A program made the translations under genes and the position numbers. The notes below the pieces were generated by a model, which was not told the origin of the DNA, ran no database searches, and worked only from the letters and a program-made list of their open reading frames with translations. From Methanothrix sp. (GTDB lineage: Archaea; Halobacteriota; Methanosarcinia; Methanotrichales; Methanotrichaceae), in NCBI GenBank assembly GCA_029907715.1, contig JARYLI010000010.1, positions 1 through 57,178 of the forward strand: 57,178 nt of DNA, given 5' to 3'. Within the stretch, counting starts at the first letter, position 1, and every line of letters begins with the position of its first letter. Of this stretch, positions 710 through 56,895 are shown piece after piece.

Positions 710-778
710 AACAAATGATTATGCTAATTAATCATAAAGTTTTCGGTTTATCGATCTAGCGACTTATACCTTGCATCT

Positions 779-1706
779 TCAGTTTATAAAGAACTTATGG
801 CAGAACATTGTGTCCAGCCAGAGGATGCGCAAGAGTTTCACCATAGCGAGCATTCTGCCAACAGGGTTCATCTCGCGGTTCAGCCTGATGAACTGGTAGT
901 GTGCTGTGTACAGATAGAGGTTCTTCTTGGATACGCCTCTGAACGTTGCCATCCATGGTCGATAGATAGAGAATTCCGCCTCCACAGTGTTGATATGCAC
1001 TCCACCACCCTTGCTGTACTCGCCGATAGAATGGTTCACACTTTCATGCATATCATCTGGCAGAATGTTATAGCTGACGTAGTCGTCGGTGTAGACGATT
1101 GTATCCGGGTCAACATCCCTCAGATACCGCTTCAACACGACTTTACTTTTGACGTTACGATGCGGTCGAATGCTCAGTCCGCCGCCTCTTTCAACGATTG
1201 CTATGACTTGAACCTTATCCGTGTCGTAAGTGCCTCTTCCCTTTGTTTTCAAGCCACGTTTCCTCGGTTCTCTCTATTACTTCCATGCCTTTTGAACCTG
1301 CTTTGACATATGCCTCATCCATCTCAACGACTCCACGAAGCTTATCTCCGATGTTTTTGCCATAGACAGTGGATCTCAACAGCTTGACCATATGGTATGC
1401 ACTCTTGTAATTGATACCAACTGTCTTCGAGATCTCGAGAATGCTCACCTTGAATTGCAACATAAACGCAACGAAGAACCACACCCGTAAAGGCAACCTC
1501 GTATCCTGAAATATTGTTCCTGTCTTGTCGTTGAACCACTTATCGCAACTCCTGCAGTGGTATCGCTGATTTGGTGTATCACGCCATCTACCGGTCCTCA
1601 CAACATGCTCAGAACCACAATACACACATCTGGCGCAAGCAGGCCATCTCATCTCACGCAACAGCTTGTAACACTCTTCCTCACCCGGCACGGATTCTAT
1701 GTTCAT
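779..1706 (-). pseudogene. IS1595-family (ISXO2-like) transposase, frameshifted
   Basis: Two overlapping minus-strand frames together make one transposase of about 305 residues. The upstream piece (1215-1706) has the N-terminal zinc ribbon of the IS1595 family (CARCVYCGSEH then YHCRSCDKWF) and the first catalytic block ending in VVEMDEAYV. The downstream piece (779-1252) supplies the rest of the DDE domain, with YTDDYVSY and the block around VNHSIGEYSKGGGVHINTVEAEFS. The frames join if two bases (GA) have been lost from a GA run near 1270-1280: restoring them gives a continuous VIEREPRKRGLKTKGRGT. I therefore read it as a decayed copy rather than a programmed frameshift. I could not find convincing terminal inverted repeats or a target duplication on either side. 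Confidence 0.8.
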
Positions 1707-1795
1707 ACAAAACTTACATCGTCAATCAAGAATAAATAAGTTGTTATGAGGTGATGAGCGCCGATGGAAAAAGAGACCCGGCCTCCGCCGGCCGG

Positions 1796-8017: not shown

Positions 8018-8207
8018 CATGCGTCACCGGTTAAGATCGACATGTGTAGAATTGGACTTAATAGTCATATTTCGCCTCAGTACTGCTATCACGACTCAAG
8101 TCCACAGGGCGGTCGATTTGAATCAAACTCTCCACTATGGGGAGATCTCAATTTGTCAAATTTCATGATCAATATATTTACATAAAATCCTTAACCGATG
8201 ACCAATG
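8018..8207 (+). repeat. R1 element, copy A (about 190 bp, terminal inverted repeats)
   Basis: First of three copies of a non-coding repeat (others at 25488-25676 and 41529-41717). The ends are inverted repeats: CATGCGTCACCGGTTAAG on the left, and the reverse complement of the right end reads CATTGGTCATCGGTTAAG. The inside has an imperfect inverted pair (GGACTTA and CAAGTCC) and the string AATTTGTCAAATT. No plausible protein is encoded. Unlike the other two copies, I see no direct duplication flanking this one, so it may be the oldest or may have suffered rearrangement. Confidence 0.85.
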
Positions 8208-8281
8208 GAGACGGCTTACACATGAGAGAGCAGAGATCCGCTTCATCAGATGCATGAGGGTGCGGGGCGTCTCCCGGCGAC

Positions 8282-9529: not shown

Positions 9530-9678
9530 CCCTCTTGCTTATCAACCCGGAGGAAATTCAATCTGGTTGCTGGAAGCACCCGTTCGCTCTCTGGGCCTTC
9601 GACGCAGTCGAAGATAAGTCGAAACGAGCGCATAGCAGGCTGGTGCTTCTCCTGCAGGCTATCAGTTTGATAAGAGTG
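9530..9678 (-). repeat. R2 element, degenerate copy
   Basis: Read on the minus strand, this segment follows the R2 pattern: a TAAGAG-type end, CTGATAGCCTG, CACCAGCCTGCTATGCGCTCG, the hairpin module TTCGACTGCGTCGAA, then GAGAGCGAAC and CAGCAACC. The ends are diverged from the CGCTCTTAT consensus and no clean flanking duplication remains, so it is an older copy. It fills most of the 334-bp gap between the phosphoesterase and the tRNA gene; I see no gene in the rest of that gap. Confidence 0.7.
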
Positions 9679-11267: not shown

Positions 11268-11371
11268 TGAGAATTCCTAAGAACCAGTTTTTTTTTGATA
11301 TAAAACAGCATCTATACAATTACTTAGCGACATGGGCAAATCGTGAAAAGGGGGGTTAATAGGAATACTCC
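11268..11371 (+). repeat. R4 element, uninterrupted copy (about 104 bp)
   Basis: The only other copy is at 50011-50242 in the opposite orientation, interrupted there by an R2 element. The ends are imperfect inverted repeats: TGAGAATTCCTAAGAAC on the left, and the reverse complement of the right end reads GGAGTATTCCTATTAAC. A run of nine T follows the left end, and a 23-bp core (about 11299-11321, beginning GATATAAAACAG) is identical in both copies. No flanking direct duplication is visible. Nothing else gene-like lies between 11100 and 11408. Confidence 0.75.
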
Positions 11372-25487: not shown

Positions 25488-25676
25488 TATGCGTCATCGG
25501 TTAAGATCAACATGTGTAGAATTGGACTTAATAGTCTTATCCCCACTCAGTACTGCTATCAGGACTCAAGTCCACAGGTGGTCGATTTTAATCAGACTCT
25601 CCACGATGGGGAGATCTCAATTTGTCAAATTTCATGATCAATATATGTACATAAAACCCTTAACCGATGACCCATG
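25488..25676 (+). repeat. R1 element, copy B (189 bp) with flanking duplication
   Basis: Homologous to 8018-8207 and 41529-41717. The left end TATGCGTCATCGGTTAAG and the reverse complement of the right end (CATGGGTCATCGGTTAAG) are inverted repeats. It is bracketed by the direct repeat CGGTTGAATT (25478-25487 and 25677-25686); the match carries on for five more bases because the element happens to begin TATGC. That is the mark of a transposition event. It fills part of the 500-bp gap between cfbB and the deoxyhypusine synthase gene; nothing else gene-like is seen there. Confidence 0.88.
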
Positions 25677-36277: not shown

Positions 36278-36377
36278 CAAGCGCTCTTACTGTGGCAACC
36301 CGCTCGTGAGCATCCAGGTCTGCAAATGGGATCGCTCTTATCCATCTGATAACCTGTCTGCATAGGCACTGATCCTG

Positions 36378-36627
36378 GTATTTGCTCAATATGGTGAGCG
36401 TGCTTGAGTTACTGATCAAATGAAGCTGCTATGGCAGAGTCGTTCATCCAGAGATCCGTCGAGATGGCAATTTAGCTCCGCTCTTATCCATTTGATGACT
36501 TGCCCGAAGGAGCAGGGGTCATGCTATGCGTTCGTTTCGACGAATGAATGCTTTCATCGACCACATTGCATGCTCTGCAAGTTGCTACGCACATAAGAGC
36601 GTTTAGCTCGACGTATTGAGCATGTTC
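36378..36627 (-). mobile_element. R3 element nested in R2 (and itself carrying an R2)
   Basis: It begins GTATTTGCTC and ends GAGCATGTTC and is homologous, in reverse, to 8282-8390 and 40983-41102. It is bracketed by near-identical 8-mers TGATCCTG (36370-36377) and CGATCCTG (36628-36635) inside the outer R2. It is itself interrupted by an R2 at 36479-36601; without that insert and its duplication it is about 119 bp, equal to the copy at 40983. Confidence 0.82.
36479..36601 (+). mobile_element. R2 element (inner copy, 123 bp)
   Basis: A complete short-form R2, from CGCTCTTATCC to ACATAAGAGCG, is bracketed by a perfect 8-bp duplication TTTAGCTC (36471-36478 and 36602-36609). It lies inside the R3 at 36378-36627. 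By eye it differs from the copy at 56773-56895 at only about six positions of 123, so both probably moved recently. It lacks the central hairpin module found in longer copies. Confidence 0.9.
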
Positions 36628-36811
36628 CGATCCTGCTATGCGCTCGTTTCGACTTATCTTCGACGTAGTCGAAGTCCTAGCTAGCTAACGAATGCATTCA
36701 TCCGGCCTGCATGTCCTTCAAGTTGCTGAATACATAAGAGCGAATGGGATTTCACAGGTTGAGCGCTATCATCAAACCGATGCTGAATACAAAAAAACAG
36801 GGGGATTGGCT

Positions 36812-41472: not shown

Positions 41473-41789
41473 CGCTCTCATGTGTTTGGCAACTTATGGG
41501 TCGAGCAATGTGGTTGCTGAACGCACTTCATGCGTCATCGGTTAAGATCGACATGTGTAGAATTGGACTTAGTAGTCTCATCTCGCCTCAGTACTGCTAT
41601 CAGGACTCAAGTCCACAGGCGGTCGATTTGAATCAAACTCTCCACTATGGGGAGATCTCAATTTGTCAAATTTCATGATCAATATATTTACATAAAATCC
41701 TTAACCGATGACCAATGGAACGCACTTACTCATTCACCAGGAATGCATAGCAGGACCAGTGCTGCTATGCATATTATATGAATAAGACG
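41473..41789 (-). mobile_element. R2 element, degenerate, interrupted by R1 copy C
   Basis: The left part CGCTCTCATGTGTTTGGCAAC...AATGTGGTTGCTGAACGCACTT and the right part ACTCATTCACCAGGAATGCATAGCAGGACC...AATAAGACG together follow the R2 pattern read on the minus strand. The R1 element at 41529-41717 separates them. Flanking strings GGGGATTT and GGGGGTTT resemble a decayed duplication. The two pieces were one element before the R1 insertion. Confidence 0.72.
41529..41717 (+). mobile_element. R1 element, copy C (189 bp) with 10-bp target duplication
   Basis: Left end CATGCGTCATCGGTTAAG and right end CTTAACCGATGACCAATG are inverted repeats matching at 16 of 18 positions. The direct repeat GAACGCACTT flanks it perfectly (41519-41528 and 41718-41727). 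The interior is close to the copies at 8018 and 25488. It sits inside an older R2 element. It has no coding capacity, so it would depend on a transposase encoded elsewhere. Confidence 0.92.
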
Positions 41790-41934
41790 TGGGGGTTTTA
41801 TCTCACGTGCTGGTTTGGACGAAACCAAAACCGCATTAAAGCCAGCCTGCCCTCAGACCGCAGAAACACCCCTTATAGAGATAGCAGCCTGATTCTGACA
41901 ACATATCTGCTGTCGCATGCGGTGTTTCAGCCAT

Positions 41935-42109
41935 CGCTCTTATCCATCTGATAACTTGGCCCGAAGAGGCAACAGTCAAGCTATTCGCCCGTTTCGACTT
42001 ATCTTCGACTGCGTCGAAGAGTTTCGACGAAGTCGAAGGCCTGGCGAGCGAATGAGTGCATTCAGCAACCGGCCTGCATGTCCTTCAAGTTGCTGAATAC
42101 ATAAGAGCG
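41935..42109 (+). mobile_element. R2 element, long form (175 bp)
   Basis: It runs from CGCTCTTATCCATCTGATAAC to CTGAATACATAAGAGCG, bracketed by a perfect 8-bp duplication TCAGCCAT (41927-41934 and 42110-42117). Between the arms is the hairpin module, here expanded: TTCGACTGCGTCGAA followed by TTTCGACGAAGTCGAA. It differs from the 123-124-bp copies mainly by that module. The right end is identical to the copies at 36742 and 50146. The remaining 42118-42253 holds nothing I recognise. Confidence 0.9.
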
Positions 42110-42253
42110 TCAGCCATATCGAGCTGCAGCACACCGATTATGTGTGAGTAATGACGCCTTCTGGAAAACGACATTGTTCATCGCATTCTGTCACGGCCTG
42201 TCCAAAGGGGAGAAGCCGGGCCGGAGCTATGCAGGCGGCCTAAGGGTCTGTTT

Positions 42254-50017: not shown

Positions 50018-50242
50018 TCCTACGCTTTTATCCATCTGATAACTTGCCCGAAGAGGCACCAGTCACGCTGTGCGCTCGTGGCGAGCGAATGAGTGCATTC
50101 AGCAACCGGCCTGCATGGCCTCCAAGTTGCTGAATACATAAGAGCGGTAATCCTATTAACCCCTTTTATGATCTTCCCATTTCGCTAAGCAGTTGTATAG
50201 ATGCTGTTTTATATCAAAAAAGCATTTATTTAGGAATTCTCA
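50011..50242 (-). repeat. R4 element, copy interrupted by R2
   Basis: It is homologous to 11268-11371 in reverse. Without the R2 insert (50023-50146) and its duplication it is about 99 bp. The ends, GGAGTAATCCTATTAAC and (reverse complement of the right end) TGAGAATTCCTAAATAA, are imperfect inverted repeats. The first contains the TAA stop of cofG and the second the TAA stop of the convergent gene 50230-50766. On the minus strand a T6 run follows that stop. Confidence 0.78.
50023..50146 (+). mobile_element. R2 element (about 124 bp) inserted in R4 right after cofG
   Basis: It runs from CGCTTTTATCCATCTGATAAC to TTGCTGAATACATAAGAGCG and is flanked by a direct repeat GTAATCCTA (50014-50022 and 50147-50155; 8 or 9 bp). 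The left duplication contains the TAA stop codon of cofG. It has no central hairpin module. The element separated the end of cofG from the rest of R4 without changing the protein. Confidence 0.88.
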
Positions 50243-50766
50243 TGAGGTCGCTCTGCAGAAACCACTCCTGAGGATCTCAGCGCCTGTTGCGAGCTCGATG
50301 AGATTTCTGGAGTTATGCGGATGACCGTCACCCCTCTCATCCTCTCCCTGAGCACGCCCTCCTCAACGGTCCACGGGTTGAAGCCGTAGATGAGTCCGCT
50401 CAGTCCACCGTTCTTCAGTATCTGGCGCAGCGCTGTGAATCTATCATCGTCATCGCTGACCTCCTCAGCGTGACCTCTGATCCTCCCGTCCGGAAGCATG
50501 ATCTCAAGATGGGGCTCTGCCAGGAGGTTGAGGTACCAGGCGCCCTGCGACCTCTCACCACGGTAGCAGTAGATTCTCCCGTTCATGATGGCGTAGCCCA
50601 CAGGCGTGTACCGCGTCCTTCCAGTCCTTCTGCCCTTCAGTATGAGCACCATGACCCGGCCTGTCACAGGATTTGAGACGATGCGCCCCAGACCGATCCT
50701 GAAGGCGGGCACAACGATGAGATTGTTCAGGAGCCTGAAGAAAAGCCGGTATATCCATGCGTGCAT
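50230..50766 (-). CDS. Deazaflavin (F420)-dependent oxidoreductase-type split-barrel protein
   Basis: The 178-residue protein resembles the DDN/Rv3547-like group of flavin/deazaflavin oxidoreductases: RRTGRTRYTPVGYAIMNGRIYCYRGERSQGAWYLNLLAEPHLEIMLPDGRIRGHAEEV. Members bind F420 or FMN and reduce various small substrates; the natural substrate is unknown. An N-terminal hydrophobic segment (LFFRLLNNLIVVPAF) may touch the membrane. It is convergent with cofG, and its last codons (GAG AAT TCC TAA) come from an R4 terminal repeat. It lies 11 bp downstream of the PIN-KH ATPase gene, so they may share a transcript. Confidence 0.8.
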   Translation of the reverse strand: MHAWIYRLFFRLLNNLIVVPAFRIGLGRIVSNPVTGRVMVLILKGRRTGRTRYTPVGYAIMNGRIYCYRGERSQGAWYLNLLAEPHLEIMLPDGRIRGHAEEVSDDDDRFTALRQILKNGGLSGLIYGFNPWTVEEGVLRERMRGVTVIRITPEISSSSQQALRSSGVVSAERPHENS

Positions 50767-56772: not shown

Positions 56773-56895
56773 CGCTCTTATGTGCGTAGCAACTTGCAAA
56801 GCATGCAATGTGGTCGCTGAAAGCATTCATTCGTCGAAACGAACGCATAGCATGACCTCTGCCCCTTCAGACAAGTCATCAAATGGATAAGAGCG
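56773..56895 (-). mobile_element. R2 element, short form (123 bp)
   Basis: Read on the minus strand it runs CGCTCTTATCCATTTGATGAC to GCTACGCACATAAGAGCG. It is bracketed by a perfect 8-bp duplication AATTTTAT (56765-56772 and 56896-56903). It has the same length as, and about six differences from, the copy at 36479-36601. The remaining gap from 56904 to 57116 is AT-rich and holds nothing I recognise except possible signals for the adjoining 5S rRNA gene end. Confidence 0.9.

Follow-up and report, generated by a model that had tools for sequence, protein, structure and literature searches.

R2, a short repeat of a methanogen genus, is a non-autonomous DNA transposon (MITE) whose mobility is demonstrated by filled and empty versions of one target site within a single genome. 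We consider it highly probable that R2 was moved in trans by a transposase of the IS1595 family, of the archaeal type whose elements end in CGCTCTT. The stretch of DNA in which R2 was noticed (the window, 57,178 nucleotides) forms contig C10 of an archaeal genome of 2.0 Mb in 55 contigs (G000), which was otherwise read only as stretches around copies. Among the Pfam matches are an archaeal helicase domain and an S-layer protein; an Rfam scan of the window returned RNase P and tRNA only.

R2 copies in the window and anatomy of the element

The initial annotation had described R2 as a MITE family, a view borne out by copy number, inverted repeats, duplications and empty sites. All the copies it had listed are present where it had placed them, and the five duplications it had called perfect are exact (Table 1). 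Some of these copies had to be redrawn. The one at 9530–9678 does belong to R2 but is old; its tips are mutated and it shows no exact duplication. The supposed copy at 41473–41789 is R2 as proposed, but really a 118-bp element into which a second repeat, R1, has been inserted. The outer copy at 36333–36742 is likewise R2, and measures ~279 bp once the nested copy and its duplication are removed.

Table 1. Coordinates of R2 copies, the R1 insertion and the IS1595-family element in the window.
Feature	Coordinates	Strand	Target duplication
Degenerate IS1595-family element whose ends resemble those of R2; candidate origin of the type of transposase that moved R2	744..1760	-	
IS1595 transposase, C-terminal half (DDE_Tnp_IS1595)	779..1252	-	
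IS1595 transposase, N-terminal half (zinc ribbon), frameshifted	1215..1706	-	
R2, old and diverged, mutated tips	9530..9678	-	none exact
R2, outer copy, split by inner copy	36333..36742	+	AATGGGAT
R2, inner nested copy, subfamily B, 99% to consensus	36479..36601	+	TTTAGCTC
R2, subfamily C, 118 bp without insert, split by R1 element	41473..41789	-	
R1 element inside R2 copy; ends CATGCGTCATCGGTTAAG / CTTAACCGATGACCAATG	41529..41717	+	GAACGCACTT (10 bp)
R2, 175-bp form with central hairpin module	41935..42109	+	TCAGCCAT (8 bp; 41927-41934 / 42110-42117)
R2, subfamily A	50023..50146	+	GTAATCCTA (9 bp)
R2, subfamily B	56773..56895	-	AATTTTAT

R2 is short (~123–200 bp), transposase-free and present in high copy number. 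Its typical length is ~123–125 bp, with older forms of 150–200 bp. The 24-bp consensus ends are CGCTCTTATCCATCTGATAACTTG on the left and CGCTCTTATGTATTCAGCAACTTG on the right, and form imperfect terminal inverted repeats (17/24 identical, counted by eye). With up to one mismatch allowed, the CGCTCTTAT tip occurs 32 times in the window, compared with 12.7 ± 3.5 (maximum 21) in shuffled sequence.

Aligned copies fall into three main groups of 123–124 bp that share ~79% mutual identity: subfamily A (46 copies, median 6.6% from consensus), B (24 copies, 2.8%) and C (22 copies, 7.4%). The low divergence of subfamily B marks it as the youngest R2 wave. Thus, at least three subfamilies of unequal age coexist in G000. 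The comparison of copies by age that had been proposed earlier could be carried through, with B youngest and the 150–200 bp forms older. These diverged older forms (~150, 175 and 200 bp) contain a central CTTCGAC...GTCGAAG hairpin module, seen at 42000–42045 and in other 150–200 bp copies, and its variable number gives rise to lengths of ~124, 150, 175 and 200 bp.

Two further repeats accompany R2 in the window. R1, a ~190-bp element and repeated landing site of R2, also occurs at 8018–8208 and 25489–25676. A third repeat of ~100 bp (GTAATCCTATTAACCCC...) lies at 50147–50255 and 11268–11368, with ~20 copies in the genome; the R2 copy at 50023 was inserted at its edge.

Target duplications and empty sites

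The initial annotation had R2 flanked by 8-bp duplications, and their length proved sharply defined. Among 200 candidate R2 end pairs, 70 carried an exact duplication of 8 bp, four one of 9 bp and none one of 10 bp or more; when the flanks were shuffled, the mean was 0.4 (maximum 4). Since the 200 pairs include loosely paired and decayed ends, the true share of copies with a duplication should be at least this high. When pooled, the targets show a symmetric signature, being A/T-rich on both sides at the outermost base of the 8-bp stretch and at the two bases just outside it.

The cleanest proof of mobility comes from R1, which contains TGTAGAATTGGACTT followed directly by AATAGTC. The junction between the two is empty in 11 distinct R1 copies and filled by R2, at exactly that point, in five others. 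In these five, TTGGACTT (or TTGAACTT) is duplicated, and the inserted elements belong to different subfamilies and lie in both orientations. This series shows the duplication directly. Between species, the G005 site orthologous to that of the 41935 copy has no R2; the 8-bp target stretch could not be aligned there, so the comparison documents absence of R2 and not a clean empty site. Searching the genus with the 50023 site yielded no single alignment that spans the insertion point, owing to the repetitive nature of the flank.

Copy number and spread across the genus

The whole-genome search for R2 ends that had been suggested at the outset uncovered many more copies. The composite end CGCTCTTATNNNNNNNNNAACTTG (up to two mismatches) was found 343 times in the 2.0-Mb genome, against a single occurrence of the reversed control pattern, which corresponds to ~170 copies. 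R2 is present in 6/6 species of the genus examined, with end counts (up to one mismatch) of 280 in G000, 206 in G005, 75 in G002, 69 in G004, 23 in G001 and 3 in G003. Genomes outside the genus contained 0–2 ends each, near the control level. Taken together, these counts define R2 as a family confined to the level of the genus and amplified there to very different degrees. Two R2 end patterns found no match in the viral contigs searched.

G002 has end variants of its own, for example CGCTCATATGTGCGTGGC and CGCTCTTGTGTGTTCAGC, which suggests that R2 was amplified separately from one species to another. On contig C1 of the same genome, R2 ends at 1641513, 1648398 and 1655283 are spaced by exactly 6,885 bp, suggesting a tandem duplication of ~6.9 kb. 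Two pairs of ends lying 1.7 and 2.2 kb apart (C1:326199–327879 and C4:126037–128226) were rejected, being separate MITEs that flank ordinary genes.

Genomic context

R2 is scarce in genes. With mechanical gene calls over 109 kb of sampled sequence, 4/18 copies overlapped a chosen open frame compared with 84% of random intervals (P = 1e-8). This scarcity agrees with selection against insertions that disrupt genes and does not call for a function of R2. Of the 13 intergenic copies that could be classified, seven lie between convergent genes. R2 can fold into long hairpins, as judged without a shuffle control, and lies mostly outside genes. These features would suit R2 copies between convergent genes being kept genus-wide as a source of terminators or insulators, a reading that we regard as improbable.

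An IS1595-family element with R2-like ends

The element at 744–1760 of the window carries the domains of the IS1595 family (PF12762, 1.4e-15; PF12760, 3.2e-7; NF033547). The initial annotation had seen no R2-type ends on this remnant, a misleading picture, as related decayed ends are present. The element has no exact CGCTCTTAT, and its left terminus reads CGCTCATCACCTCATAACAACTTATT. The left end CGCTCATCACCTCATAACAACTTA forms an abrupt boundary that recurs with differing flanks at five other loci (L135, L162, L223, L224 and L255). The right ends of sister copies, CGCTCTTATTGATCTAGCG and CGCTCATATTGATTTAGCGACTTA, are tipped CGCTCTTAT or CGCTCATAT; that of L033 is CGCTCATATTGATTTAGCGACTTA and that of L255 is CGCTCTTATTGATCTAGCGAGTT. 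At L255 an R2 copy stops just inside the IS1595 terminus, but the outermost bases, CGCTAGATC, are part of the insertion sequence and not of R2.

On a matrix of R2 right ends, the right ends of L033 and L255 score higher than any of 108,670 background 24-mers. On the left-end matrix, the IS1595 left end reaches p = 1.5e-4, although it matches that of R2 at only 15/24 bases; the right end of the window element itself has decayed too far for scoring. IS5, GGG-type IS1595 and TGCTGTG ends gave no score. R2 and the IS1595 elements have only their termini in common and no internal sequence. No target duplication is visible around the decayed window copy; intact relatives show 8–9 bp.

IS1595 remnants occur in 4/6 genomes of the genus (G000, G001, G004 and G005), and their termini resemble those of R2 wherever the ends were legible. 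No IS1595 match was obtained in G002 or G003, both of which carry R2. The search for a full-length insertion sequence sharing R2 ends, also proposed earlier, thus succeeded in part: decayed IS1595 elements with related ends were found, but no intact one in the genus. Every copy read is broken, and the family has probably stalled.

IS1595 relatives from other parts of the phylum were identified through homology of their transposases, and their limits were then set from inverted repeat plus duplication. Their transposases are 34–38% identical, and 9/9 bounded elements begin with CGCTCTT and have 8–9 bp duplications. The window transposase scores 76–93 bits against most of these relatives compared with 40–47 bits against GGG-ended IS1595. 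The GGG-ended elements of two relatives (L219 and L220) were rejected as mobilisers, as their ends differ from those of R2.

Which transposase moved R2

The R2-like left and right ends of the IS1595 elements, together with the CGCTCTT ends of their distant relatives, make an IS1595 element the most likely mobiliser. The initial annotation had left the mobiliser open, while naming IS1595 among the candidate families with 8-bp duplications; end likeness and relatives now support that candidate. Since every IS1595 copy read in the genus is broken, we infer mobilisation in trans, though with good support. In the mechanism that we propose, an IS1595-family transposase of the archaeal type with CGCTCTT ends would act in trans. 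It would recognise both 24-bp R2 ends, cut a WWW-N6-WWW-like target with a stagger of 8 bp (sometimes 9) and join R2 into the cut target.

Alternatively, the mobiliser of R2 could belong to a transposase family that the genus has since lost or that still awaits description, in which case the likeness to IS1595 would reflect convergence of ends. The lack of an intact partner and of internal homology would agree with this, and orphan archaeal MITEs are on record (PMC3852290). Yet the tips, the spacing of the inner AACTT, the duplication length and the co-occurrence of the two elements all favour IS1595, and we hold such a lost family to be unlikely.

An ISL3-family transposase is a very unlikely mobiliser. 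ISL3 elements (ends GGCTCTTC...), found in related genera of the same family (ends GGCTCTTCGC), make 8-bp duplications and share GCTCTT at positions 2–7 with R2; on the left-end matrix their ends score about as well as those of the distant IS1595 elements, and Methanosarcina acetivorans is reported to have an ISL3-linked MITE with a 22-bp inverted repeat and a 7-bp direct repeat (PMC3852290). Nevertheless, ISL3 transposase is absent from all six genus genomes, the ISL3 tip base and inner motif differ from those of R2 (GGCTCTTCGCTATTTCATGTGG), and the IS1595 of the genus itself matches R2 better at both ends. R2 thus has neither the ends nor the partner of an ISL3 MITE.

The 1,269-bp element on contig C12, a DDE_Tnp_1 transposase pseudogene flanked by two R2 ends, can be dismissed as an autonomous parent of R2, since relatives of its transposase have ends of their own (GAGGATTCCTAT...) that are present inside the C12 R2 copy; what looks like a full-length R2 is an R2 copy of normal length that has taken up an IS5 element, and R2 itself does not have IS5 ends (GAGGATTCC..). 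Close relatives of the IS5-type pseudogene (L078, 1168–2436) occur in further genera of the same taxonomic family. G002 also contains a 988-bp insertion sequence (L068 and eight further copies) with a 300-aa DDE_Tnp_1 transposase, TGCTGTGTTGGATAA ends and 8-bp duplications, which was rejected as the mobiliser, its ends differing from those of R2.

Comparison with known systems

With an IS1595-family transposase as the likely type of mobiliser, R2 is a high-copy MITE family in a methanogen genus that combines a clear target rule with empty sites within one genome. We found no published report of the family in Methanothrix or Methanosaeta in a literature search of incomplete coverage. R2 sites could be used as markers in strain comparison. 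Moreover, R2 illustrates that MITEs can exceed their transposase in number and outlive it, with ~170 copies compared with a handful of dead insertion sequence copies.

IS1595 elements usually generate 8-bp duplications and carry a single transposase gene, with an N-terminal zinc finger except in the IS1016 group (PMC8101967). The CGCTCTT-ended archaeal members (found among L230–L250) share tips and 8–9 bp duplications with R2. However, they are autonomous, ~1.0 kb long and have the inner motif ATTGTTGAT, where R2 has AACTTG. Archaeal MITEs commonly match their partner insertion sequence at the borders only (PMC3852290). The MITE linked to ISMac21 (ISL3) in M. acetivorans resembles R2 as a methanogen MITE of similar size, but has a reported direct repeat of 7 bp and belongs to a family absent from the genus of R2 (PMC3852290).

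Two further close descriptions come from Haloquadratum. HqIRS39 is, like R2, a mobile MITE, in another host, and is mobile although all copies of the matching transposase, HqIRS12, are disrupted (PMC3119063). In Haloquadratum walsbyi, the MITE of ISHwa6 is 165 bp long with an inverted repeat of 25 bp and a direct repeat of 8 bp (PMC3852290, Table 4). Like R2, it is archaeal and assigned to IS1595, with similar size and inverted repeat length and an 8-bp repeat, a likeness of description. Whereas the ISHwa6 MITE has 7 copies, R2 has ~170 in several subfamilies and extends genus-wide. An IS1595-linked MITE with 8-bp repeats was therefore already known, and R2 adds another of that sort.
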